A stretch of 46,284 nt of DNA from Trueperaceae bacterium (lineage in GTDB: Bacteria > Deinococcota > Deinococci > Deinococcales > Trueperaceae), in contig JAABRV010000002.1 of NCBI GenBank assembly GCA_011390735.1, positions 1 to 46,284 of the forward strand, in the 5' to 3' direction. This document shows positions 3,850 to 37,351 of this stretch, piece by piece (the stretch's first letter is position 1; each line of letters starts with the position of its first letter). The notes beneath the pieces were generated by a model, which had not been told where the DNA came from, searched no databases, and was given only the letters and a program-made list of their open reading frames with translations. The position numbers and the translations under genes are program-made.

Positions 3850-4401
3850 TCAGGGCGCCAGCGTCGGGGCGACGACGAGCCGCGCGTAGGCGGTCGCCAT
3901 GACCTCCGCGGGGTAGGGCATGTCGTGGTCGAGCCACCAGCCCACGAGCGCCAGCGATGCCGCGGCCAGGTGATGGGCGGCCAGGTCGACGGGCACGCCC
4001 GGCGGCGTCCGGAAGCTGGGGCTGGCGAGCACGCGGCTGCACACCGCCGCACGCAGGTCGCGCTCGAGGGTCCCGCTGCGCTGCGCGTCGAACAGCACCC
4101 GCAGCGCCGTCGCGTGGCCGGCGACGTAGTCGAAGAGATCGCGGCCGGCGTCCTCGAGCCGACCCGCCTCGGCGCTGGGCTGGAGGAGGTCGGCGAGCTC
4201 GCCGACGATGCCGCCCAGGACGTCGAGCAGCAGTTCCTCCTTGCTCTGGTAGTGGCGGAAGAAGGTCGCGTAGCCGACGTCGGCGACCGAGGTGAGCTCG
4301 CGGATCGTCAGGTCGGCGAAGGGGCGCTCCGCCGCGAGCTGCAGGAGTGCTCGCGCGAGGGCCTCGCGGGTGCGGCGCACGCGCCGGTCGAGGGCGGTCA
4401 T
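3850..4401 (-). CDS. TetR/AcrR-family transcriptional regulator
   Basis: This is a one-component repressor with an N-terminal helix-turn-helix and a ligand-sensing C-terminal domain. From the chosen start (MTALDRRVRRTREALARALLQ), the helix-turn-helix is DLTIRELTSVADVGYATFFRHYQSKEELL, about residues 30-59. It is followed by a TetR C-terminal helical region with AAASLALVGWWLDHDMPYP. The ORF track begins 13 codons earlier (4440). I prefer 4401 because TACCGT (4413-4408) lies 6 nt upstream, giving a leaderless start like many genes in this window. It faces the 4518-5939 gene pair across a long inverted repeat that overlaps both putative promoters. Autoregulation and control of that pair are therefore likely. 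The ligand is unknown. Confidence 0.92.
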   Translation of the reverse strand: MTALDRRVRRTREALARALLQLAAERPFADLTIRELTSVADVGYATFFRHYQSKEELLLDVLGGIVGELADLLQPSAEAGRLEDAGRDLFDYVAGHATALRVLFDAQRSGTLERDLRAAVCSRVLASPSFRTPPGVPVDLAAHHLAAASLALVGWWLDHDMPYPAEVMATAYARLVVAPTLAP

Positions 4402-4424: not shown

Positions 4425-4466
4425 GTTTCGAGACACGCATATGTTACGCTACACGTGTCTCATAAC
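4425..4466. promoter_or_regulatory. Inverted-repeat operator between tetR and the kinase-like gene
   Basis: GTTTCGAGACACG (4425-4437) and CGTGTCTCATAAC (4454-4466) are inverted copies matching at 11 of 13 positions, with GAGACACG perfect. The 16-nt centre contains TACGCT (4445-4450), a plausible -10 for the rightward genes. The element lies in the only gap between divergent genes here and covers both promoters, as expected for a TetR operator. Confidence 0.7.
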
Positions 4467-19324: not shown

Positions 19325-22300
19325 TCACCAGCGCCAGGTGACGCCGAGGCGCGCGGTCGACCGCTCGGTCGAGAGGTCGAGCCCGAGCTCCAGGGCCCAA
19401 CCCGGCGCCAGGCCGTAGCGCCCGCCGATGGCCAGCGACGGCCCGCCGGTCGCGGCCGTGCCGGCGGCCACGTCGAAGCGCCCCGTCACGTCCATCGCGA
19501 CCGGCCCCAGCTGGTAGGTGAGCGCGACCTCGTTGCTGAAGGCGTCCCCGCCCAGGGTGGAGACGCGGTAGGAGGCGAAGACCTCGTCGCTCAGGTAGCC
19601 ACCCAGGCGCAGCGACACGCCGAAGGCGTCCTCGCCGTCGAGCAGGGCGGACAACGCCGTCGTCCGCAGCTCGACCACCTCCACGCCCAGCGCCTCGGAC
19701 AGCGCCGCCTGGAGCTCACCGGTGATCAGCACGTCGACGGCCGTGTCCAACGCGCTCTGCGCCACGGCGCCCGCGAAGCCACCGCCCGCCTCCAGGCGCC
19801 CGAGCGTCAACAGCGTCAGCAGCTCGAGCTCCGTGAGCGCGCGCGCCCCGCCACCGTCGAGCCCCTCGACGACCGCGTCGCTCGTCAGCGTCGGCGTCAG
19901 GTCGAGGGTGAAGCCGGCGTCGCCGTCGATCGCCTCGCCTGCGAGCACCAGTACGACCTCGAAGCGCTGACCCGCCGGCGCGAGGAAGCGCACCGTCTCG
20001 CCCGCGGGCACGACGCGCCCCTTGTCGAAGGTGGCGCGGCCGCCGACGCGCACGGCGGGGTAGACGCCGCGCGTGGGGTCGAAGGTCGCCAGCGCCTCGG
20101 TCAACTCCAGGTCGCGGCCGGCGAAGCGGACGGTGCCCCGCAGCGCGGTCACCTGGCCGCTCAGGCGTGGCGCCGCCGCCGTGCCGACCAGCGATAGGTC
20201 GACGCTCGCCTCCGCGTTCCCGATCGACTCGTTGAACGTCACCCGCTGGGGTGCGACGATGCGGACGCCATCGAAGCGGAAGCGCTCGCGCGGGTCGCCG
20301 ACGGGGGTGGGTGCGACGGCCGCCGGCGGCGTCGCGTCCCCGTCCACCGACGGCGCGGTCGCCGCCCGCGCGGCGAAGGCGGCGCGCGTCGCGAGGTCGA
20401 TGCGCGCCTCGCTCGCGTCGATCCGCCCACCCAACCGGACGCCGTCACCGTCATCGGCCAGTCGCAGGTCCGCGTCGAGGCGAGCGTCGGCGATGGCGAG
20501 GAAGGGGAGGGTGACGTTGAGGTCGCGCCCGCTGATGCGGAGGTCGAGCGGTGCCAGCGGTCCCTCGATCGTGAAGGGCGACCCGAGGGTCCCGCTCACG
20601 CTGAGCGTCGGGGCCAGGTCGTCGCTCCAGGCGAGTGCCGCCGTGATCGCCTCGACCCGCCCGATGAAGGGGACGTCGAGGTCGCCGGCGGCGCGGGCGT
20701 CGAGGCCGAAGCCGCCCTCGGGGAAGGGGCCGATGCGCCCGCTGGTCGCGAGCTCGAGCCGGCCGGTCAGAGGATCGATCGCCACGATCTCGGCACGACC
20801 GCTCCAGTCCTGGTCGCGGAGGGTGAAGCGGGTCTCGAGCAGCTGGTAGCGGGTGCCCGCGACCAGCAGCCGGAGGTCGTCGGTGCGCAGCGCCACGTCG
20901 GGCGACGCCGGCGTGCCGTGGGCGGTGACGACGAGGTTGCCCTCGGCGGAGACGCCGTAGCGCGCGAAGCTCGGCACCAGGCCGAGCAGCGGCCCGAAGT
21001 CGGCCGCCTGCGCGAGCAGCTCGAGGTCGAGCACTTCCGGCGTGATGCGGCCGCGCGCCTGCCACGTGCCGCGCCCCTCGAATGCGGCCCGTCCGATCGT
21101 CAGGGCGTCGCCGTCCCAGTCGACCGACAGCTCGCCGATCGTCACGACGCCGGCGCGCTCGAGCTCGATGCGTTCGGCCGCGACCCGCAGGTCGTCGGGC
21201 ACGGTCGCGCCCCAGGCCCACGCGCCGCGCACGGCGCCCGTGACCTCGGCCCGCACGTCCGATGGCCCCACCACCGCCTCGACCCACGCATGCAGGGGGA
21301 AGCGCTCGAGGCGCACGAGCGTCGACAGACCCGCCGGACCGACGTCGAACTGCGCGTTCGCGCCCGTGAGGTCGAGGCGACCGCTCCCGACGACGCCCGC
21401 CGCCCCCCCGAGGTCGGCCTGGAACTCGAGGCGCGCCGGGTCGGTGCGCCCGCCGTAGGTGAGGGCGTCGCTCGTCAGCAGACCGAAGAGCCGGTCGCCC
21501 CGCAGCGTCGCGCTGCCCCCGACATCGCCCGCGATGCCCGCGATGCCGGCGATGCCGGTGAGGTCGAGCCCGACGACGCGCGCGTCCAGCTCGCGCACGG
21601 GGGCGCCGGCGACGCCCCAGCCGGCGGGCAGCAGGATGGCGGCGTCCCAGCGCCCGACGGCCGTCGCGCTGCCGCGGGTGCCCACGATGCCGGCGTCGAG
21701 CGCGAGGTGGCGGCCGGCGCCGGCGATGGCCAGTTCCAGCGAGGCCGGGCCGTCGCCCAGCGCGTCGGTCACCATCGAGACGAGCAGCTCGCCGCCCCAG
21801 CCGTCGGCGTCGAGCGTGAGGCGGCCCGCGGCGGACGGGGGCGGCAGATCGTCCACGGCCGCGCCCACCACGTCGAGGGCGATCGCAGCCGCGCTCGAGG
21901 CGGGCTCGACGGTCGCGTCGATGCCCCACGGCGCCTCGCCGGTGAGGGTCAGTCGCCCGTCGCGCCAACGCAGCGTGCCGATCAACGGCTGCGCCCAAGG
22001 CCAGGCGCCGGCGTACGCGAGGTCGGCGCCCCAGCGACTCAGGTCGAGGCGCAGGTCGAGCTCGGCGGTAACCCCCGCCTCGGCCACGGTGTCGTCGCCG
22101 ACGACGAGATCGCGACCCCCTTCCACCCGGCCGTCCACGGTCGCGACCACGCCGCGCCACGCCAGCGACAGCTCCTCGGCCACGAGCCATGCGCCGGTGG
22201 CACCGAGCGCGCGCACGGCGCCGGTCCAGCCGCCGGTCCCGCGCCACCACCAGCCCTCGTTCGTCACCTCGGCCATGGCGGCCAGCAGCGGCGCGTCCGG

Positions 22301-25300
22301 CAGCGTGGCGCTCAGCCCGCCGCCGAGGGCCGGCAGCAGGACGCGCACGGCCGCGGGCTCCGACACCTCGATCCGCAGGCCGCCCGTGTCCACGGCGAGG
22401 GCACCAGCGAGGCGCAGCGCCCCCTCCCGCCAGCCACCGGTCAGACGCACGAGGCCGGCGTCTCCGCCGTCGACGGCGACGTCGATCGTCGGCCACGCCC
22501 GACCGGTCACCGCCAGCGCGGATCCGTCTGGGGACGGCAGCGACGCCTCGACGTGGGCGACGCCCGCGCGCCAATCGGCGTCGACCCGCCATGCCGCGGC
22601 GGGCCCGGCCGTGACGCCGATCGCCAGGGAGGGATCCGCGAGCGTGCCGGCGAGCTCCAGCGTCGCGTCGACTCGCGTGCCCGCTACGCTGGCCCCGATC
22701 AGGCGACCGCTCCCTCCCACCGCGTCCCCGTCGAGCGCGAGGGGCCATGCGACCTCGCCCGCGAACGCGTGCCCCGAGACGTCGCCGCGCCAGCGGTCCG
22801 CCCGACCCGCCGCGGCGACGCGCAGGTCGAGCGGCCCGGCCGGCGTGTCGCCCACCCACGTCGCGGCCAACTCGATGCCGTCGGGGGCACCGCGGGCCGT
22901 GAGCGAGGCGCGCGTGTCGCCGACGGGCAGGGCGACGGCGTCGAGCGCCAGGCGCCAGTTCCGCAGGTCGGGAGCGAGCAGGCCCGTCGCGTGCGTGCCG
23001 GTCAGGGTCCAGCCCGCCAGCGCATCGCCGGTGACGCGGCCGTCGCCCAGCTCCGCGCCCGCGACCGTGGCCGCGCGCCACGCCACGTCGACGACCGGCC
23101 GCCGTGCGTCGCCGAGGTCGATCGTCCCCGCCACGCTGCCGCCGGCGCCGGGCAGCGCGGCCAGGTCGCCGGTGAACTCGGCGCGCCAGCCGGCGGGGTC
23201 GATCGCGACCCCCCAGTCCCGCCAGCGGCCGCTTCCGCGGACGGCAAGGCGCCCGGCGTCCGTCGTCACGCTCCAGGTCTCGCCGCCGACGTCGACCTCG
23301 CCGCCGCCACCGAAGCGCTCCTCGGTCAGACCCACGTCGAGCGCGAGCCCGGCACCGAACAGCTCGCCGTCCGCTCGCAGCTCGACGCTCGCGCGCCCGG
23401 GCCACCATGCCGCGTCGCCGTCGAGGCGTGCGTCGGGGCCGGTGGCCGTCCAGTCGGCGCGGACGAGCGGATCGCCCGCGCTGCCGGTCACCGACAGCGC
23501 CGCCCGCCAGGTCGCGTCGATGCCGTCCCAGCGCACCTCGTCGGCCTCCAGGATGGCCGCGATCGTGCCCGCCAGCGGCTCGCCGATCTCGCCATCGAAC
23601 GACACCGGACCGCGCACGCGACCGCCCAGGTCGGTGTCGAGCAAGAGGTCGCGCAGGTCCACGTCGACGCGGGCCGATGCCTCCACGCGGCCGTTGGGCC
23701 CCCCGACGCCGCCGCCCTCCAGCAGGCTCCCGGGCGTGGTGAGGCGCAGCGCGTCGACCCGCCACGACCCACCGCCGTCGTTCCACACGACCTCGGCGTC
23801 GGCGCTGAGCCGCGGCTCGCGCAGCCACGGCAGCGCGTCGTCGAGCGGCAGGTCGCGCAGCTCGAGGCGGCCCTCGCCTAGCGCGCCGCGGAGTTCCGAC
23901 GTGAGCTCGATGCCCGGGCCCGACAGTTGCGCCCGGATGACGTCCCCGTCGGCCGTCAGCCGTCCGAGCGCCTCCCTAGGGCCCGAGAGACGCAGCTCGA
24001 GGTCGGCGTCGAAACCGGTGGCGCCGAACCCTACGGGCCCCCGCGCGAACAGCGTCGACGACGTCGGCGCGGTGAGCGGCACGGCGAGTTCGGCATCGCC
24101 GCGGATCCCGCGGGTCGGGTCGGGCCCGACGCTGAGCGTCGCGCCGCCCGCGGCGGCGCCGTCGACCGACAGCGCCAGCTGGGCGGCGAGATCGCCCGCC
24201 CCCGCGAGGTCGACGACCGCGTCGAGGTACCCGAGGGCGCCGGCGTCCCAGGCGCCCGTGATTCGGCCGCGGCCCGCCCAGCCCGCGTCGCCGCCCCAGC
24301 GCAGGCCGGCCGCCTCCAGCTCGACGAGGGGCAGCTGCCCTGGTTCGCTGCGGCCGTCGATCGCCAGGCCGCCGTCCACCCAGGTCAGCTGGAGCCCACC
24401 CCAGTCCAGACGCCAGGACGGGGAGGAGACGAGCCGGGCGGAGAAGCCGTCGTCGGCGAGCGCGATGGCGCCGGTGAGCTCCAGCGGCTCGAGCGGACCG
24501 ACGAGGTGCGCGCGCCACGGCTCCTCCGCGTGCGCCACGTCGAGCCGCAGCCACGGCGCCCGGCCGTCGCCATTCGCCGGCAAGCCGACGTGGGCGGCGA
24601 TGGCGAAGCCGCCCACGTCGGCCGCGAGGTCGGCCTCCGGCGACGGGTCTAGGCGCCACGAGAGATCCGCGTCGAGGCCGGCGGGACCGCTGGCGGTCGC
24701 CCGCCCCGTCCGCCCGCCGCCCGCGTTCAGTCGCCAGCGGCCGTCGGCGCTCGTGAGGTCGAGCTCGACGCCGTCGGTGTGCGAGCGGGCCTCGCCGCTC
24801 CAGGCAACGTCCGCGACCTGGCCGGTGAGCGCCCAGCGGGTCGCGGGCCAATCGCCCAGGTCGCCGCCGCTCACCCGCCAGGTGGTCGCCACATCGCCCA
24901 GCTCCGCCTCCGCCGTCAGGTCGAGGCTCTGGCCGGCTGCCTCCAGGCGCGCGTTGGCGGGCCAGCCTGACGCCGCCGGCAGCGAGACGTCGAGGTGGCC
25001 GGCGAGCGACCAACCGTCGGCCCCGATCCGAGCGCGCAGCTCGCCGCGCGCGGCGGGATCGGGCAGTGCCGCGAGCCCGGGCGCCCGCGCCAGGTCGAGG
25101 TCCTCACCCCGCGCGACGACCTCGAGCGCGCCGTCGGCGAGCGTCAGACGCCCCTCGGCCCACGGTGCGGGGTCCGCGGCGGGACCGGCGAGGGGCGCGT
25201 CGTCCGCCAACCACCAGCGGCCGTCGGCGGTGGCCATGGCCCCGGCGGCCTCGAGCACCACCCGGAGGCCCGCGAGCCGAGCGGCGCCAGCGAGCGTCCA

Positions 25301-28300
25301 GGTGTCGAGGTCGCCCGACCACGTCGCGGTCACGACCTCGCCGGCGGCGTCGAGCGCCCAGCCGTCGCCCTCGGGTCGCAGCCGCAGTGACGTCGGCACG
25401 TCCGCCACGGTGACGGTCGTGGACAACCCCTCCGGCCAGGTCCCGTCGAGCCCGTCCAGGCCCGCCAGCGCGAGGCCCGCGGGCCGCAGCGCGACCTCGG
25501 CGGCGAGCCGCGGCCACGCCAGGATGCCGAGCTCGCCCGCCGGCAGGCCGACCTCGCCCTCGAGGCGGGCCTCGCCGGCGGACGCGAGGAAGGCGCCGCG
25601 CCCGTCGAGGCCGAGGCCCACGTCGTCGGCGAGCCGCCACGCGCCGCGCCAGGCGAGGGCACGGCCGAGCGTCACCGTCCCCTCGGCCCACGCCCGGAGC
25701 GGGCCGAGGCTCGCCGTCGCGTCGAGGGTCGGTGCGTCCCCGCCGACGAGCCGGGCGGCGACGTCGGCCCCCGCGAAAGAGGCGGTCAGGTCGAGGGCGC
25801 CCATGCCCGGGCTCGCCGCGGCGGGGCCGAGCGCGAGGGCGAGTTGGCCGTCGATCGTGAGCGCCAGGTCGTCGCGCTGCACCAGCGGTGCGAGGCGCGC
25901 CTGCTCCGCCACGACCTCGACGCGACCGTCGGGCCCGAGGCTGGCGCGCCAGCCCGCGCCCGTCAGTTCGCCGCCCGCCGGCGTCCAGGCGAGACCGACC
26001 GGCCGGTCCTCGGCGTCGCGCCAGTCGGCGCGCAGCTCCAACGACCCCGCGGGCGACCACGCGAACGTCCCCGCGAGGTCCCCCGCGAGCGCCGCCTCGC
26101 CCTCGGCGGCCAGCAGCGGGCTGACCGCCGAGGCCCAATCGGCCACCGGCCCCGCGAGGGTACCGGCGACGCGGTCGAGGTCGCCGGCGACGCGCGCGCG
26201 GCCCCCGCCGGCGAGTTCGAGCGTCGCGTCGACCTCCCCGGCGGGTCGTGCCGCGGACCAGGCCACGCGCCCCGTGACGCGGGCGGGTCGTCCGCCCCAC
26301 GAGAGGCCGAGGTCGACCTCGGCGTCGAGACGCGGGTTCGCCACGTCGAAGGTGGCGCGCGTCGTTCCGAACTCCGCCTCACCCGAGCCGGTGCCCGTCA
26401 GCCGCAGGCGCCAGGCCTGCGGCGGCACGCGCAGGGCCACGGCGCCCCAGCCGGGCCACGTCCCGGCCCCCGAGGCGCCGTCGCGGTCGATGCGCAGTCG
26501 GGCGAGATCGCCCCACGTCAGCGCCCCCGCGAGCGGCTCCGGCGCGCCCGGTCGCCACTGCCCGGTGGTCCGCACGGGCAGCCCGCCGAGTTCGCTCGAC
26601 CCGTCCCAGGTGGCCGCGGCCCCGTCGGCCGCAAGCGCCATCGTGGCGGGCCACGGCGCCGTCAGCGCCAGCGTCGCCTCGCCTTGCGGCAGAACGTCAC
26701 GACCGGTCTCCCACGCCCCGGCGAGGCGCGCCACGCCGGCGACGTCGGCGCCACCCTGCAGCGCGAGCCCGAGGTCGAGCCCCCCCGCGACGTCGAGGCG
26801 GCCGCCGGGCCGCCAGCTGCCTTCCAGACGTTCACCGCCGCCGACGATCGTCCCCCGCAGCGCGCCGTCGGCCCAGGTGGCCGTCGCGACCAGCTGCGGC
26901 AACGCGACCGTGGCCGTGAAGGCGGAGAGCGTGCCTTGCGCGTCGAGGGTGGCGGGCCGACCGAGCCAGGTGACGGGCGCGGCGTCGACGCTCCAGGGGC
27001 CGCCGGCGGCGGAGGTGAGTCGCCAGCGGCCGTCGTCGCCGATCGCCGCCCAGCCGTCGGGACCGCCGTCGACCCGCCACGTGACCTCGTCGGCCATGCT
27101 CCAGAGCGGCTCGGAACCTCCCGGAACGGGCGCCCCGGAGGCGACCAGGGTCCGCCCGGTGGCCGTCCAGCCCGCCGGGCCGCCGCTCGCCCCGACCGGG
27201 CCCAGCGTGCCCCGGAACGCGCCACCCAGCGGCAGCGCATCGATGGCGGCGGTCCAGTCGTCGCCGTCGATCCCGACGGCGACGGGCCCGAAGCGCCCGT
27301 CGCCCCGCAGACGCCCATCGGCGAGCGTGGCCGCGGCCCGGCCGCGGAGGTCGAGTCCGGGCAGGAGCTCGGGGAGATCGATGCCGGCGACGCGCGGCGT
27401 CACCGCTTCGTCGCCGGCGACCTCCAGTTCGAAGCTGGGCACGCGCAGGTCGCCGCCCATCCGCAGCGACACGCGCGCCCCGCCCGCGATCAACTCGTCG
27501 GGCGCCAGCCAGGTGACGCCCCCCTCGACGCGCGCATCGGCGGACACGCGGGTGGCGATGGCGCCCGTGACGCTGCCGCCCCACGCGCTGCCGTCCACGA
27601 AGGCCTGCAGGCCCTCGGCGTCGAGCACGACGTCGCCCGCCAGCCGCCATGGCCCCTCGCCGGCGCGCGCCGTCCCGCGTCCGCGCACGGGCCCGTCACC
27701 CGTCGTCCAGTCGGCCGCGAACGCCTCGAGCGGCGCGCCGAGCACGCGCAGCGGACCCGCTTCCACGTGCCAGTCGGTCGCGCCGTCTCGGTCCTCGGTG
27801 CGCAGGCGCAGCGGCCCGTCGCCCCAGCGACCCTCGAGCGCCAGCGACAGGCCCCGGGCCGTGTCGTACGCCAGTCGCAGGTCGTCCACCGACAGGGGGG
27901 CGTCCAGCCACGCACCCGCGGCGGTGACGTCCGCCTCGAGCGCCGTCGTCGTCCAGCCCTCCGCCGTGACGCTGGCGCGCACCGTGCCGTCGTCGGCCTC
28001 CGGGAGCCCCGGGACGCCGAGGAGGTCGAGCAGCGCGCGGCTCGCGTCCGCCAAGGGCGCATCCGCGGTCGCCGTCGCCTGCCAGCGGGCCTGGCGGAGG
28101 TCGACCGTGCCGCCCGCGTCGAAGCGGCCGCCGACGATGGCGCCCGACCAGGCGACCTCGATGACGTCGTCCCGCCACGCGATGGGGCCCCGGATGTCCG
28201 TCGCGGCCGTACCGAGCGCGTCGACGGCGCCCCCCTCGACCTCGAAGCGACCGGCGGTGAGGCCCGAGGCGCTGCTGAGCTCGCCGCGCAGCGTGCCGGC

Positions 28301-28930
28301 CTCGATGCCGTCCCACCAGTGGCGGGCCACGCGCGCGTCGCCGTGCTCGAGCGTCACGTCGAAGGCATCTTCTCCGAGCCGACCGCGCACCGTCCCCTCG
28401 ACGCGCCCCTCGGCCGTCACCAGCGACGCGGACACCTCCCAGCGGCCGTCGTCGCCGCTGGTCGCCTCGAGGCGGGCGATGCTGAAGTCGGGGAGGTCGA
28501 ACGGCACCTCGGCGATCCGCAGGTCCGCGACGTCGAGCCTCGCCCCGTCGATGCGCACCTGGATCGCGGCGGGCTCGCCCTCCGCCGCCGGCAGCGTCAG
28601 GCGGCCCAACTCCACGTCGCCGGCGAGACCCACGACGTCGAGCCGCAGCGGCAGCTCGCCGACGACGAGTGCCGGCAGGAACCAGTCGACCGAGACGGAC
28701 GTCGCGGTCACGTCCAGGCCGTCGGCCACGAGGCGCGGCTCGGTCAGCGTCAGGCCGCGCCACGCGTAACCGGAGATCGCGACGAAGCTGAGGGTGGCGT
28801 TCGCGGAGGCGGCCGAGTCGACGAGCAGCGAACCGAGGGCACCGCGCAGCCACGACGAGTTGGGGAGCCAACCCAACGTGAGGGCCAGCGCCGCGAACAG
28901 CGTGAGGGTGGTGAGGGTTCGTCGTCGCAT
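19325..28930 (-). CDS. Giant TamB-like (DUF490/AsmA-superfamily) envelope protein
   Basis: TamB-like proteins span the periplasm as a long hydrophobic-grooved beta-taco and move lipids or help assemble outer-membrane proteins. From the ATG at 28930 the protein has 3,201 residues, about two and a half times E. coli TamB (near 1,260). It opens with a signal anchor (MRRRTLTTLTLFAALALTLGWLP). Nearly everything after it is beta-rich repeat sequence of short G, W, D and A-rich strands with no catalytic motifs. The last 350 residues match the TamB C-terminal domain: TRGVYPAVRVGGRATFDKG, FTLDLTPTLTSDAVVEGL, LTELELLTLLTLGRL, then VVELRTTALSALLDGEDAFG. The chain ends in an aromatic residue (VTWRW), like outer-membrane beta-signals. 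The track's start at 29320 would cross acyP and is rejected. A -10-like TAGGGT lies 75 nt upstream. Confidence 0.9.
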   Translation of the reverse strand: MRRRTLTTLTLFAALALTLGWLPNSSWLRGALGSLLVDSAASANATLSFVAISGYAWRGLTLTEPRLVADGLDVTATSVSVDWFLPALVVGELPLRLDVVGLAGDVELGRLTLPAAEGEPAAIQVRIDGARLDVADLRIAEVPFDLPDFSIARLEATSGDDGRWEVSASLVTAEGRVEGTVRGRLGEDAFDVTLEHGDARVARHWWDGIEAGTLRGELSSASGLTAGRFEVEGGAVDALGTAATDIRGPIAWRDDVIEVAWSGAIVGGRFDAGGTVDLRQARWQATATADAPLADASRALLDLLGVPGLPEADDGTVRASVTAEGWTTTALEADVTAAGAWLDAPLSVDDLRLAYDTARGLSLALEGRWGDGPLRLRTEDRDGATDWHVEAGPLRVLGAPLEAFAADWTTGDGPVRGRGTARAGEGPWRLAGDVVLDAEGLQAFVDGSAWGGSVTGAIATRVSADARVEGGVTWLAPDELIAGGARVSLRMGGDLRVPSFELEVAGDEAVTPRVAGIDLPELLPGLDLRGRAAATLADGRLRGDGRFGPVAVGIDGDDWTAAIDALPLGGAFRGTLGPVGASGGPAGWTATGRTLVASGAPVPGGSEPLWSMADEVTWRVDGGPDGWAAIGDDGRWRLTSAAGGPWSVDAAPVTWLGRPATLDAQGTLSAFTATVALPQLVATATWADGALRGTIVGGGERLEGSWRPGGRLDVAGGLDLGLALQGGADVAGVARLAGAWETGRDVLPQGEATLALTAPWPATMALAADGAAATWDGSSELGGLPVRTTGQWRPGAPEPLAGALTWGDLARLRIDRDGASGAGTWPGWGAVALRVPPQAWRLRLTGTGSGEAEFGTTRATFDVANPRLDAEVDLGLSWGGRPARVTGRVAWSAARPAGEVDATLELAGGGRARVAGDLDRVAGTLAGPVADWASAVSPLLAAEGEAALAGDLAGTFAWSPAGSLELRADWRDAEDRPVGLAWTPAGGELTGAGWRASLGPDGRVEVVAEQARLAPLVQRDDLALTIDGQLALALGPAAASPGMGALDLTASFAGADVAARLVGGDAPTLDATASLGPLRAWAEGTVTLGRALAWRGAWRLADDVGLGLDGRGAFLASAGEARLEGEVGLPAGELGILAWPRLAAEVALRPAGLALAGLDGLDGTWPEGLSTTVTVADVPTSLRLRPEGDGWALDAAGEVVTATWSGDLDTWTLAGAARLAGLRVVLEAAGAMATADGRWWLADDAPLAGPAADPAPWAEGRLTLADGALEVVARGEDLDLARAPGLAALPDPAARGELRARIGADGWSLAGHLDVSLPAASGWPANARLEAAGQSLDLTAEAELGDVATTWRVSGGDLGDWPATRWALTGQVADVAWSGEARSHTDGVELDLTSADGRWRLNAGGGRTGRATASGPAGLDADLSWRLDPSPEADLAADVGGFAIAAHVGLPANGDGRAPWLRLDVAHAEEPWRAHLVGPLEPLELTGAIALADDGFSARLVSSPSWRLDWGGLQLTWVDGGLAIDGRSEPGQLPLVELEAAGLRWGGDAGWAGRGRITGAWDAGALGYLDAVVDLAGAGDLAAQLALSVDGAAAGGATLSVGPDPTRGIRGDAELAVPLTAPTSSTLFARGPVGFGATGFDADLELRLSGPREALGRLTADGDVIRAQLSGPGIELTSELRGALGEGRLELRDLPLDDALPWLREPRLSADAEVVWNDGGGSWRVDALRLTTPGSLLEGGGVGGPNGRVEASARVDVDLRDLLLDTDLGGRVRGPVSFDGEIGEPLAGTIAAILEADEVRWDGIDATWRAALSVTGSAGDPLVRADWTATGPDARLDGDAAWWPGRASVELRADGELFGAGLALDVGLTEERFGGGGEVDVGGETWSVTTDAGRLAVRGSGRWRDWGVAIDPAGWRAEFTGDLAALPGAGGSVAGTIDLGDARRPVVDVAWRAATVAGAELGDGRVTGDALAGWTLTGTHATGLLAPDLRNWRLALDAVALPVGDTRASLTARGAPDGIELAATWVGDTPAGPLDLRVAAAGRADRWRGDVSGHAFAGEVAWPLALDGDAVGGSGRLIGASVAGTRVDATLELAGTLADPSLAIGVTAGPAAAWRVDADWRAGVAHVEASLPSPDGSALAVTGRAWPTIDVAVDGGDAGLVRLTGGWREGALRLAGALAVDTGGLRIEVSEPAAVRVLLPALGGGLSATLPDAPLLAAMAEVTNEGWWWRGTGGWTGAVRALGATGAWLVAEELSLAWRGVVATVDGRVEGGRDLVVGDDTVAEAGVTAELDLRLDLSRWGADLAYAGAWPWAQPLIGTLRWRDGRLTLTGEAPWGIDATVEPASSAAAIALDVVGAAVDDLPPPSAAGRLTLDADGWGGELLVSMVTDALGDGPASLELAIAGAGRHLALDAGIVGTRGSATAVGRWDAAILLPAGWGVAGAPVRELDARVVGLDLTGIAGIAGIAGDVGGSATLRGDRLFGLLTSDALTYGGRTDPARLEFQADLGGAAGVVGSGRLDLTGANAQFDVGPAGLSTLVRLERFPLHAWVEAVVGPSDVRAEVTGAVRGAWAWGATVPDDLRVAAERIELERAGVVTIGELSVDWDGDALTIGRAAFEGRGTWQARGRITPEVLDLELLAQAADFGPLLGLVPSFARYGVSAEGNLVVTAHGTPASPDVALRTDDLRLLVAGTRYQLLETRFTLRDQDWSGRAEIVAIDPLTGRLELATSGRIGPFPEGGFGLDARAAGDLDVPFIGRVEAITAALAWSDDLAPTLSVSGTLGSPFTIEGPLAPLDLRISGRDLNVTLPFLAIADARLDADLRLADDGDGVRLGGRIDASEARIDLATRAAFAARAATAPSVDGDATPPAAVAPTPVGDPRERFRFDGVRIVAPQRVTFNESIGNAEASVDLSLVGTAAAPRLSGQVTALRGTVRFAGRDLELTEALATFDPTRGVYPAVRVGGRATFDKGRVVPAGETVRFLAPAGQRFEVVLVLAGEAIDGDAGFTLDLTPTLTSDAVVEGLDGGGARALTELELLTLLTLGRLEAGGGFAGAVAQSALDTAVDVLITGELQAALSEALGVEVVELRTTALSALLDGEDAFGVSLRLGGYLSDEVFASYRVSTLGGDAFSNEVALTYQLGPVAMDVTGRFDVAAGTAATGGPSLAIGGRYGLAPGWALELGLDLSTERSTARLGVTWRW

Positions 28931-29004
28931 CCGGTGTCGGTTCGGGCTGGGCTGGCGCCGGTCCCGCGCGCTTGCGACACGCGACGAGCCCCGTCCTGGT
29001 CGCC

Positions 29005-29010
29005 ACCCTA
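29005..29010 (-). promoter_or_regulatory. -10 candidate for the TamB-like gene
   Basis: The minus strand reads TAGGGT 75 nt upstream of the ATG at 28930. It is divergent from, and only 25 bp away from, the acyP -10, so the two promoters are back to back. The -35 is not evident. Confidence 0.35.
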
Positions 29011-29035
29011 CCATCGGCGCATGAGGGGCCTGAGG

Positions 29036-29041
29036 TAGCAT
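29036..29041 (+). promoter_or_regulatory. -10 box of leaderless acyP
   Basis: TAGCAT, a 6-nt gap, then the ATG at 29048. This matches the spacing seen at other gene starts in the window. Confidence 0.55.
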
Positions 29042-29047
29042 GCGTGC

Positions 29048-29329
29048 ATGACCGACGCCACCGACGTGCGCGCCACCATCCTCGTCCGGGGCCGGGTCCA
29101 GGGGGTCGGCTACCGTGCCTTCGTTCGCCGCCACGCCCTCGACCTCGGCCTCGCCGGCCACGCCGAGAACCTCGCGGACGGCCGCGTGGAGGTGCTGCTC
29201 GAGGGGGACCGGCGCGAGATCGAACACGCCCTCGTCGCCCTCGGGCAGGGCCCCGCGCACGCCGCGGTCGAGGCCCTCGAGGTCGCTTGGAGCGACGCGG
29301 CGGGCCTCCGCGGGTTCCATGTCCTCTGA
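29048..29329 (+). CDS. Acylphosphatase
   Basis: This small cytoplasmic enzyme hydrolyses the carboxyl-phosphate bond of acyl phosphates. The 93 residues are the normal length. The phosphate-binding loop and catalytic Arg are in [16 protein letters not shown] (residues 15-30). The catalytic Asn is in [17 protein letters not shown] near residue 41. The fold ends with GLRGFHVL, a typical acylphosphatase terminus. It starts leaderless after TAGCAT and overlaps trpC by 11 nt, so it leads a three-gene operon with trpC and an SDR gene. Confidence 0.95.
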
Positions 29330-33476: not shown

Positions 33477-34169
33477 ATGAAGCGTCATGGCCGCCGCCCG
33501 CGCCAGCCGATGCGGCTGATCCTGTCTTGGGCCACGCTGCTGGTCGTCGCTGCGGCGTGGGCGCAGGCCGGCGTCGCCGAGCTCGAGGCGATCGCCTACG
33601 GCCGCCAGCGGATCGACCTGGCCAGCGGCCGGACGATCCTGGAGGACGGCGGCGAGCTGATCGAGCGCGGCAGCGGGGTGAGGCTCGTCGCGGCCTGGAT
33701 CGCGTATGCCGAGGGCGTCGAGGTCACCGCGCGCGACGTGTCGATCGAGGGCGACGTCGGGTTCGTCGACGCGCCGCTGCTGACGATCGATCTCGTGGCC
33801 GGTCGGCTGACGGCGAGCGGCGGCGTCGCCTGGCGACGGGAGGGCCTGCAGGTGGCCGGCGAGACGCTGTGGTTCGACGTCGACGCGGGCGTCGTCGGAC
33901 TGCTGGGCGGCGTCGAGGCGGTCGAGCCCGACGCATCGGCCGCGGAGGCGTGGATCGAGCTCGAGAGCGGTCGCGTCCTGCTGCTGGGTCCCTATGCCTA
34001 CGCCGATGGCCCGCTGGTGCTGCGGGGCGGCGAGGGTGCCGCTCTGCAGCTCGACGCCAGCGACACCGACGCGGGCGTCGTGTACGACGCGAGCACCGCC
34101 GTCGACGCGGACTGGCTGGCGGTGGTAGACGCTGCCCGCGCGGCGTGGGAGGCGGCGTCCGAAGAGTGA
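33477..34169 (+). CDS. Exported OstA/LptA-like protein
   Basis: This 230-residue protein has a basic N-terminus and a signal peptide (MRLILSWATLLVVAAAWAQA), then a beta-rich region. It has the repeating strand pattern of LptA/OstA periplasmic bridge domains: QRIDLASGRTILEDGGELIERG, AAWIAYAEGVEVTARDVSIEG and VAGRLTASGGVAWRREGLQVAGETLWFDV. In LPS-making bacteria such proteins link the inner-membrane exporter to LptD. Deinococcota have an outer membrane but generally no classical LPS, so the cargo here may be another glycolipid. It overlaps the larger LptD-like gene by GTGA, and lptF/G follows soon after. A second possible start is Met-12. Confidence 0.7.
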   Translation: MKRHGRRPRQPMRLILSWATLLVVAAAWAQAGVAELEAIAYGRQRIDLASGRTILEDGGELIERGSGVRLVAAWIAYAEGVEVTARDVSIEGDVGFVDAPLLTIDLVAGRLTASGGVAWRREGLQVAGETLWFDVDAGVVGLLGGVEAVEPDASAAEAWIELESGRVLLLGPYAYADGPLVLRGGEGAALQLDASDTDAGVVYDASTAVDADWLAVVDAARAAWEAASEE

Positions 34170-36175
34170 TCCGCCGCCTGGCCCTGGTGTGCGTGGCGTG
34201 GGCCGCGTTCGCTGCGGGGCTCGCCCTGGCGTCCGGCGCGGAACCGGCCGATGCCTGCATCGCGGTCGAGGGCGGCGCGGAGTTGACGGTGGAGGGGCTC
34301 GGCCGGGCGGTGTTCGCCGGCCTGAGCACCGATCGCGTCCGCGACGAGGCGCTGCTGAGCGGCGGCGTGTGCGTGGAGTTCAGCGCCACCGGCGGCGTCC
34401 TGCGCAGCGAGCGACTCACCCTCTCGGGCCTGGGGGACGGCGTGGCGCTGTCGGCCGTCGACGTCGAGTTCCGACTCGACGAGTGGACGATCGCCGCCGA
34501 CGTCCTCGAGGCCGACATCGCCGGTGCCGTCCTGACCGGGGTCAGGTTGACGTCGCCCGACGCGGTCGCCCTGGCCGAGGGGCTGCGCGTCGATCTGGTG
34601 ACCGGGACGATCGTCGCGCACGCGCTGCGGCTCGTGACGGAGACGCTGTGGGTGGCCGCCGACGGCGCGACGCTCGACGGCGATCGGGTCGAGCTCCGCG
34701 CGGTCGGGCTGACGACCTGCGACTGCCCGCCGGCCGAGGCGAGCGTGCGACTCGAGGCGCGGACCGCCGAACTCGACATCGTCGACCCGACCGTGACCCT
34801 GCACGGCGCCGACCTCGTCGTCGGGTCGTTCCGCTGGGCGCTGAGCGACCCCTGGTCCTTCGACGCCGAGAACCTCACGCTCCCGCTGCCGCCGATCTCC
34901 GTGTCGGAGGATCCCGAGGGTCGCCGCGGCACCCTCGTGGGCGTCAGCGAGCAGGCGGTCGCGCCCGGGGTCCGCTTCGCCTGGGACGTCGGGATCGGCG
35001 ATGGCGAGCGCCCGCCGGACCTGTCGCTGCGCATCGCCGCCCGCGCAGGCGACGCCAGCGTCGACGTCACCGGCGCCAGCGACCGCCTGCGCGTGGCGTG
35101 GCGAGTGAACCGCCCCCTGGCGAACGGCTGGACCGTCGCCTACGCGCAGCGGCTGGAGGGCGGCGCGTGGGACGAGCCGGTGCGCGACCAGAGCCTCACG
35201 GCGGGCTGGTCGCGCGCCTGGTCCACACCCACCGCCGGGTTGGCGGTCGTCGAGGTCGACGCGTCGGCGTTCACCGCGCTGACCGCCCAGACGCTGGCGG
35301 GCGGCGAGGTCGTCGGCACGCGGTCGGGCGGATCGCTGAGGGTCCGCATCGCCGGCGAGGTCGTGGCCGGCTGGCGCCCGGCGCTGGAGGTCGCCGGCGG
35401 CGCGACCGGTTACCCGGCCGACGCGGCGACGCAGACCTGGTGGTCCGTCGCGCCGAGGGCCACCCTGACGGCGGGCGCCCTGCGCCTGGAGGTCGAGCAC
35501 CTCTCGCGCTGGGTCCGGGGCGCATCGCCGTTCGGTGCGTCGCTCGACCGACTGGCCCCGCTGCACCGCAGCGACGTGCGCGCCTCCCTCGCGCTCGCGG
35601 GTGGCGCCGGCGACGTCGGAGCGGGACGGCTCACGGCAGTGGCCCGCTGGGACTGGCGGGCCGACCCGCGGCGGCCCGGTCGGGCGATCGGGCTCGAGCG
35701 CCTCGAGCTGACCGGTTCGACCGGCGCCGCCGCCTGGGGTGGCCACCTCAGCGTGCGCGCCGAAGCCGACCTGGCGGGTGCCATCGATCCCAGGCCGGGT
35801 CGGGCGTCGTCGCTCGGTGCCACCGTGGCGTGGACGCGGGCGGACTGGGAGCTCGGCACGCGGGTGCGGCTCGATCCGACGGCGCCCGCTTGGCCGTGGC
35901 GCGAGGCGACGGTCTTCGCGGCGCTCCCCATCGCGACCGGCGACTGGTGGTGGCGGCCGTACCTGGCGGTCGACGTGGCCTCCTGGGCCCGCGAGCAGGC
36001 AGGCTGGTGGGTGGGCCACGGTCTCGACCTGGCATGGACGAGCGATTTCGGCGTGCTCGACCTGGGCTACCGCTACGACGACGGGATCGGTCTGCGGCTC
36101 GACGTCGGGGTGCGCTTCGAGTCCCGGCCGCTCGATCTCGAGCGGCTCGAGCCCGTCACCGAGGGGCGGCCGTGA
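34166..36175 (+). CDS. LptD/OstA-like outer-membrane protein
   Basis: This 669-residue protein starts at GTG with a signal peptide (VIRRLALVCVAWAAFAAGLALASG). Residues 25-230 are OstA-like beta repeats (for example SGGVCVEFSATGGVLRSERLTL and AHALRLVTETLWVAADGATL). A pair of cysteines in LTTCDCPPAEA sits at the junction, a position where LptD proteins also carry cysteines. After PLPPISVSEDPEGRRG the rest (about 255-669) is an alternating amphipathic pattern typical of an outer-membrane beta-barrel, with Trp/Tyr girdles such as TGDWWWRPYLAVDV and VLDLGYRYDDGIGLRLDV. Its neighbours, the OstA-like gene before and LptF/G after, support a role in lipid export to the cell surface. Confidence 0.78.
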   Translation: MIRRLALVCVAWAAFAAGLALASGAEPADACIAVEGGAELTVEGLGRAVFAGLSTDRVRDEALLSGGVCVEFSATGGVLRSERLTLSGLGDGVALSAVDVEFRLDEWTIAADVLEADIAGAVLTGVRLTSPDAVALAEGLRVDLVTGTIVAHALRLVTETLWVAADGATLDGDRVELRAVGLTTCDCPPAEASVRLEARTAELDIVDPTVTLHGADLVVGSFRWALSDPWSFDAENLTLPLPPISVSEDPEGRRGTLVGVSEQAVAPGVRFAWDVGIGDGERPPDLSLRIAARAGDASVDVTGASDRLRVAWRVNRPLANGWTVAYAQRLEGGAWDEPVRDQSLTAGWSRAWSTPTAGLAVVEVDASAFTALTAQTLAGGEVVGTRSGGSLRVRIAGEVVAGWRPALEVAGGATGYPADAATQTWWSVAPRATLTAGALRLEVEHLSRWVRGASPFGASLDRLAPLHRSDVRASLALAGGAGDVGAGRLTAVARWDWRADPRRPGRAIGLERLELTGSTGAAAWGGHLSVRAEADLAGAIDPRPGRASSLGATVAWTRADWELGTRVRLDPTAPAWPWREATVFAALPIATGDWWWRPYLAVDVASWAREQAGWWVGHGLDLAWTSDFGVLDLGYRYDDGIGLRLDVGVRFESRPLDLERLEPVTEGRP

Positions 36176-36199: not shown

Positions 36200-36205
36200 T
36201 AGAGT
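36200..36205 (+). promoter_or_regulatory. -10 box of the lptF/G transcript
   Basis: TAGAGT, then 10 nt, then the ATG of a four-codon ORF at 36216. No clear -35 is present. Confidence 0.45.
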
Positions 36206-36215
36206 GCCCACGCGG

Positions 36216-36230
36216 ATGAGGGCGCCTTGA
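36216..36230 (+). CDS. Four-codon leaderless micro-ORF coupled to lptF/G
   Basis: ATG-AGG-GCG-CCT-TGA (M-R-A-P). Its TGA (36228-36230) overlaps the TTG start of the membrane permease (36227-36229). The ATG lies 10 nt after TAGAGT, so it could be the first or nearly first codon of the mRNA. The peptide is too short for a function of its own; the likely role is to bring ribosomes to the weak TTG. Confidence 0.45.
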   Translation: MRAP

Positions 36231-37351
36231 GTCGTATCGACCGCTACCTGTTGCGCGAGGCCTGGCCGCCGTTCCTGTTCGGCTCCCTGCTGTACGCCGG
36301 GCTGGCGGTGGTCGCGGCGACGCTGCCCCGCCTGCAGTGGATCGTCGGGACGCCGGTCGGCGACTTCGGCTGGTGGCTCCTGACGCTGCTGCCGCAGGCG
36401 CTGGTGCAGACCGCGCCGGTGGCCCTGGTGCTCGCCGTGCTGCTCGCCTTCGGGCGCCTGACCACCGATCACGAGCTGACGGCGATCCAGGCGGGCGGCG
36501 TGCCGACGGCGCGGATCACCGGCGTGTTCGTCGGCATCGGCTTGGGTCTGGCGATCGTGGCGCTGGCGTTCAACCAATGGCTGGTGCCGGCGTCGAACGC
36601 GGCGGCCGCCGACGTCTACTGGCAGCTGACCGCGGGCCGCACCGGCCTGTTCCGGTTGGCCGCCCAGCGCGTGCCCATCGACGGCTTCACCCTGCGGTTC
36701 GACCGGCTCGAGCGCGACGGCACCCTGCTCGACGTTCGCGTCGAGCGCTGGGACGGCGACGTCTACACCCTGTTGCGCGCGGAGAGCGGCCGTCTCGAGG
36801 GCCAGGACCTGGTGCTGTTCGACCACCGCACGCAGCGCTTCGACCTCGCCGCCCTCGACCGACCCACGGACGCCGCGGACGACCTGCTGCGGGCGCTGGT
36901 CCGCCTCGACGCCCGCTCGTCGGGCCCGGACGCGCCCCTGGTGGTCTCGACCGGCGTCGACGAGGCCGAGCTCGTCGCCCGCTTCAGCGCCGGCGGCTTC
37001 GAGGATCCGCGTTCGATCACACGCCTGTGGGCCGACGCTCGCAACCCCGACCTCACCGCCGTCGAGCGCCGGGAGGCGACCGTGTTGGGCCACCGCAAGC
37101 TGGCCGAGCCCGCCTCGAACGTCGCCCTCCTGCTGGCCGCGCTCCCGCTCTCGATCGCCTTCGCCCGCTCGCGGGCGGTGGCCTTCGGGCTGGCGCTGCT
37201 GGTCACGCTCGCCTGGTACCTGCTGTACACCTTCGGGCAGCTGCTGTCGCTGACCGGCGTCGTCTCGGCCTGGGTCGGCCCGTGGTCCGCCAACCTGCTG
37301 TTCGCCGGCCTCGGCCTGGCGTGGCTCTGGAGGCGTGGTGCGCGCCGTTGA
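36227..37351 (+). CDS. LptF/LptG-family permease (YjgP/YjgQ)
   Basis: This is the inner-membrane permease subunit of the Lpt lipid-export ABC transporter. The 374 residues open with the family signature MSRIDRYLLREAWPPFLFG. Six membrane helices flank a central periplasmic beta-jellyroll domain (about residues 125-275). The cytoplasmic coupling stretch LTTDHELTAIQAGGVPTARI near residue 84 matches the conserved HELTALRAAG region. The C-terminal helices contain NVALLLAALPLSIAFARSRAVAFGLAL. The start codon is TTG; no in-frame ATG gives the conserved opening. Only one such permease is in the window; the second permease and the LptB ATPase must be elsewhere. Confidence 0.93.
   Translation: MSRIDRYLLREAWPPFLFGSLLYAGLAVVAATLPRLQWIVGTPVGDFGWWLLTLLPQALVQTAPVALVLAVLLAFGRLTTDHELTAIQAGGVPTARITGVFVGIGLGLAIVALAFNQWLVPASNAAAADVYWQLTAGRTGLFRLAAQRVPIDGFTLRFDRLERDGTLLDVRVERWDGDVYTLLRAESGRLEGQDLVLFDHRTQRFDLAALDRPTDAADDLLRALVRLDARSSGPDAPLVVSTGVDEAELVARFSAGGFEDPRSITRLWADARNPDLTAVERREATVLGHRKLAEPASNVALLLAALPLSIAFARSRAVAFGLALLVTLAWYLLYTFGQLLSLTGVVSAWVGPWSANLLFAGLGLAWLWRRGARR

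Follow-up and report, generated by a model that had tools for sequence, protein, structure and literature searches.

How translation of an LptF/LptG-family gene that opens with TTG is initiated is the question raised by 31 nt in the Trueperaceae MAG G000. The original prediction for this DNA (contig C185; 46,284 nt in all, hereafter the window) was that a leaderless four-codon ORF feeds the TTG through an overlap between its stop and the start of lptF/G. The layout was given there as TAGAGT, 10 nt, ATG AGG GCG CCT TGA and an overlapping TTG, and every element of it was found exactly as described (Table 1).

Layout of the lptF/G start region

Table 1. Features at and around the lptF/G start (positions in the window)
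Feature	Position	Strand	Basis and remarks
−10-like hexamer TAGAGT (TANNNT class)	36200..36205	+	Sequence; 10 nt to ATG, 21 nt to TTG; TANNNT orthologous in g1, g5, g8, g15, g12, g7
10-nt spacer GCCCACGCGG	36206..36215	+	Sequence; G004 differs in bases, not in length
Mini-ORF, four codons ATG AGG GCG CCT TGA (MRAP)	36216..36230	+	Sequence; ATG 36216-36218, TGA 36228-36230; relatives' equivalents aligned
GAGG, candidate Shine-Dalgarno 5 nt before TTG, within mini-ORF	36218..36221	+	Duplex −6.1 kcal/mol
TTGA stop/start overlap	36227..36230	+	Start TTG 36227-36229; TTGA in G003; GTGA in G004, G008, G018
LptF/LptG-family permease gene, 374 aa, TTG start	36227..37351	+	LptF_LptG PF03739; 92% identical in G003
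Upstream gene, LptD-like by the original prediction and position	34166..36175	+	Ends 51 nt before lptF/G

The product of the ORF at 36227-37351 matched the LptF_LptG family over residues 6-369 with 192.9 bits (cut-off 27.9). Its upstream in-frame stop is the TAG of the TAGAGT hexamer itself, and between this stop and the conserved SRIDRYLLRE the TTG is the sole ATG, GTG or TTG, which upholds its assignment as the start codon. For the upstream gene no Pfam match was found; in the gap that separates it from lptF/G on the same strand, neither a terminator-like site nor a sigma-70 match with a −35 was found. The genome contains three LptF/LptG-family genes, namely an adjacent pair on another contig (G000:C101:42157-44258) and the single copy of the window. 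Elsewhere in the window, the minus strand of 19325-29320 is occupied by a single called gene whose open reading frame runs to about 3,330 codons.

Nearly all relatives have S, T or K as the second residue of LptF/G, encoded there by codons that begin with A. Because this residue is conserved the NTGA overlap is forced, as any ORF in the +1 frame must stop there. The mini-ORF is, as predicted, extremely short (four codons), but its overlap with the start is dictated by residue 2; on the sequences compared, the overlap is in itself unremarkable, and the informative elements are the RTG, its frame and its position behind the −10. Two of the codons are rare in this genome (AGG makes up 2.0% of Arg codons and CCT 1.7% of Pro codons), and slow decoding or peptidyl-tRNA drop-off within the mini-ORF is conceivable. 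Folding of the RNA from 36212 to 36262 revealed no unusual structure (z 0.78).

The locus had also been presented as the second independent example in the window, but no other was found in the gene calls of the window. The sole other candidate, running on the minus strand from a GTG at 4436 to an ATGA at 4401, is more readily explained by an in-frame leaderless ATG: the ATG of TAGCGT-5 nt-ATG shares its frame with the ATG called for gene 3850-4401, which probably has a leaderless start 13 codons upstream of its ATGA.

The start region in related genomes

The lptF/G start regions of 29 Trueperaceae orthologues were aligned by hand, together with 20 more from the family and order. G003 and G004, which belong to the same genus as G000 (g1) and are the two genus-mates with intact sequence at this point, encode LptF/G proteins 92% and 73% identical to that of the window. 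Both retain the TANNNT, the 10-nt spacer, ATG AGG, the four codons and the NTGA, with MRTS and TTGA in G003 and MRTP and GTGA in G004. Between G000 and G004, five of the 10 spacer bases have changed while ATGAGG has not. A coupled layout was also recognized in two further genera. In g15 (G018) it consists of TAGCAT, 7 nt and a five-codon ORF (MRPAA) ending in GTGA, in which the A of the ATG has become G, leaving a start codon still; in g5 (G008) it consists of TATCAT, 8 nt and a six-codon ORF (MEGRAP), again ending in GTGA. The distance from RTG to the start codon is thus 11, 14 or 17 nt in the three genera, and the coupling frame is held each time. The conservation of the ATG, on which the original prediction had been made to depend, proved real among the coupled layouts, with GTG in its place only in g15. 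Judged from these alignments, the layout is more than chance, as it occurs in both genus-mates that reach this point, has outlasted the change of half of the spacer relative to G004, and recurs in two other genera.

A TANNNT lies at a similar place in most Trueperaceae lptF/G orthologues, and what follows it differs. In g8, TATCAT and 12 nt precede an in-frame ATG AGG that is the start of lptF/G itself, and g7 has its in-frame GTG directly behind the −10, at 8 nt; the g12 relative G015 has a Shine-Dalgarno between the −10 and the start. Two g12 sequences (L013, L015) have, 6 nt from TAGCAT, an in-frame CTG in place of the RTG of other lineages, and a leaderless CTG start is conceivable there. 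In order-level relatives (L180-L185) the sequence reads as if the upstream gene ended on the lptF/G ATG in an ATGA overlap. In the protein tree, g1 clusters with g15 and g12, and g5 clusters with g8. The most parsimonious history, a weak conclusion given the few lineages, would make the coupled layout ancestral to these five genera, with two later changes: the in-frame start would be derived in g8, and the Shine-Dalgarno start in g12.

Leaderless signals and coupled mini-ORFs across the genus

Start signals were counted in 1.17 Mb of G003 (1036 genes), 0.26 Mb of G000 and 0.4 Mb of each of three other genomes, using a home-made gene caller and measuring the spacer from TANNNT to the start codons. 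In G003, in-frame ATGs behind TANNNT show a sharp peak at 6-7 nt, with 136 cases at 5-8 nt and a tail to 11 nt; leaderless genes of this genus are marked by a TANNNT at 5-8 nt. Shine-Dalgarno motifs before the other starts peak at 4-8 nt, and statistically the genus uses both signals. By this measure the term 'leaderless' suits the lptF/G mini-ORF in the position of its TANNNT promoter, but only approximately: its 10 nt exceed the 5-8 nt of the peak and predict some 4 nt of leader.

A coupled case was defined as an out-of-frame ATG outside the neighbouring genes, with a TANNNT 5-11 nt before it, whose ORF ends in NTGA on the start of the gene. G003 contained 16 such ATG mini-ORFs at spacings of 5-11 nt, compared with 2.45 expected from spacings 12-31 (Poisson 8e-9), and at 9-11 nt there were six (1.05 expected). 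Mini-ORFs in the +1 frame outnumbered those in the +2 frame by 20 to 5 (p 0.004). The control motifs AT...T and TT...A gave no comparable excess, bar four TT...A cases at 5-8 nt. These coupled counts are upper bounds owing to gene-start errors, and eight coupled cases with TANNNT at spacings of 32-39 nt raise the background to possibly as much as about one per spacing; the most cautious estimate of the excess would then be some twofold to threefold. Of the 22 coupled cases in G003 at least one, at offset 135133 on the minus strand of concatenated C11, probably reflects a miscalled start: an in-frame ATG lies 9 nt upstream of its GTG. The excess was weak in G056 and not clear in G011 or G017. 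The coupled layout at lptF/G is real and conserved, and part of a genus-wide class, of which some 40 members would be expected per whole genome. Near-leaderless mini-ORFs coupled through NTGA may, at somewhat under even odds, be a regular third start mode of the genus (about 1-2% of genes) beside leaderless and Shine-Dalgarno starts, lptF/G having stayed behind the same promoter while small indels switched it between an in-frame leaderless start, a coupled mini-ORF and a Shine-Dalgarno start.

Four codons and a 10-nt spacing recur in another candidate, TAGACT-10 nt-GTG GTT GCG CCG TGA overlapping a GTG start; it is identical in G003 (G003:C11:73363, plus strand; L074:13363) and G000 (L044:1202-1188, minus strand), and it too has a GGAGG at its start.

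Possible routes to the TTG start codon

The reading that we favour, with a probability of roughly 0.45, is that lptF/G is started through coupling to the near-leaderless mini-ORF with help from the GAGG. The gene would have a promoter of its own, with the −10 TAGAGT so near that transcription would begin close to G36212, about 4 nt before the ATG. Ribosomes would load at this near-leaderless ATG, translate four codons, stop at the TGA and slip back by one base onto the overlapping TTG, where initiation of LptF/G would be assisted by the GAGG just behind. The MRAP peptide would have no role of its own, and on read-through mRNA that also carries the upstream gene, initiation at the TTG would depend on the GAGG only. 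What the sequences show is the anatomy, its conservation, the genus-wide excess of the layout and, statistically, the use of both start signals; the 5′ end, the translation of the mini-ORF and the re-initiation are inferred. Coupling is supported by the retention of the layout in each of the three genomes of the genus that are intact here, always in the coupling frame, by the constancy of ATGAGG while the spacer diverged, by the genus-wide excess and its preference for frame +1 over +2, by the parsimonious placing of the layout at the ancestor, and by the ribosome association of a like architecture in mycobacteria (PMC4633059). It is weakened by the 10-nt spacing outside the main leaderless peak, by the forced NTGA, by the rarity of AGG as codon 2 of leaderless genes (0.6%) and by the lack of a clear excess in G011 and G017. 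The GAGG, 5 nt from the TTG, is moreover a sufficient Shine-Dalgarno, and 14 of the 22 coupled G003 cases carry a fair one.

An ordinary Shine-Dalgarno start, in which the leader measures about 15 nt, the 30S is brought straight to the TTG by the GAGG, and the ATG is there by chance or as a remnant of an in-frame start like that of g8, is accordingly a serious possibility, at rather better than one chance in three. The 5 nt between the GAGG and the TTG fall within the distance (about 4-10 nt) at which a purine-rich anti-SD match marks a Shine-Dalgarno-led gene, and GAGG precedes in-frame GTG or TTG at exactly that spacing 31 times, with 7 and 6 occurrences in the two other frames. The duplex energy is about the median of non-leaderless genes (−5.9 kcal/mol), being attained by 48% of these and by 11% of random coding sites. 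The GAGG would serve a read-through mRNA as well, on which only the Shine-Dalgarno route would work, and G015 shows a Shine-Dalgarno-led start behind the same −10. What this explanation leaves out is why an RTG is retained (A to G in g15, otherwise ATG) where the GAGG suffices, why the distance from RTG to the start varies by multiples of three, and why the coupling frame is in excess across the genus. Of the original prediction, the TTG as start, the conserved ATG and mini-ORF and the position of the TANNNT promoter are borne out, and the genus shows an excess of such coupled mini-ORFs; a need for the mini-ORF does not follow, since the embedded GAGG has the right spacing to serve the TTG as a Shine-Dalgarno. 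The two mechanisms are not mutually exclusive, and separating coupling from an ordinary Shine-Dalgarno start takes experiment.

The local promoter might instead be irrelevant, with lptF/G read from a longer mRNA of the upstream gene and TAGAGT and ATG placed by coincidence. The shared strand, the short gap with neither a terminator-like site nor a sigma-70 match with a −35, and the apparent ATGA overlap in L180-L185 fit this explanation; it is unlikely in view of the similarly placed TANNNT of most Trueperaceae orthologues, including g7 with its directly leaderless GTG, and of the finding that in Deinococcus a TANNNT near an ORF is a working −10 (PMC12340547). A sequencing or assembly error, with one base missing and the ATG truly in frame, is suggested by g8, where the in-frame ATG AGG region is one base longer. 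A frameshift of this kind was rejected as highly improbable: the separately assembled G003 and G004 have the same frame, and the start codon is kept (TTG, TTG, GTG) where g8 has CTC, CTA, TCG or GTA.

The lptF/G mini-ORF is an instance of a principle known from mycobacteria, in which leaderless coupled small ORFs have been described (Shell et al. 2015, PMC4633059); in M. tuberculosis, of 220 leaderless small ORFs 23 were coupled, compared with 32 of 1000 random ones, and a Shine-Dalgarno may assist re-initiation according to the same authors. As in mycobacteria, there is a statistical excess in the genome, and the geometry is conserved between species though the peptide differs. The mycobacterial ORFs encode 5-50 aa and overlap through RTGA, whereas here there are four codons in the window, G003 and G004 (five in G018, six in G008) and the overlap is TTGA in the window and G003 and GTGA in G004, G008 and G018. 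The present case further differs in its predicted leader of about 4 nt rather than 0, its embedded Shine-Dalgarno and its phylum. In Deinococcus-Thermus, mRNAs whose TANNNT −10 motif lies a few bases before the start codon are leaderless or nearly so (Zhong et al. 2025, PMC12340547). The spacing peak of 6-7 nt in this genus equals theirs, but in their cases the start codon beside the motif opens the gene itself, whereas at lptF/G it opens a mini-ORF, with the TAGAGT 10 nt away; nothing relevant to short ORFs, uORFs or coupling was found in that paper. Translational coupling of overlapping genes (−4 spacing), and short ORFs that 'deliver' a ribosome, have been reviewed (PMC12548453); the stop/start tetranucleotide is the same, but in place of an upstream gene there is here an ORF of only four codons. 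A literature search, the 2014 D. deserti transcriptome paper excepted, found no report of leaderless coupled ORFs in Deinococcota.

For gene finders the locus is a warning: the TTG looks improbable as a start unless the mini-ORF or the GAGG is taken into account. Should the four codons be translated, few coupling ORFs would be as short, and leaderless coupling would extend from mycobacteria to Deinococcota, which are also rich in leaderless mRNA. The lptF/G series of the Trueperaceae would then show how the mode of starting a gene can change without loss of its promoter.
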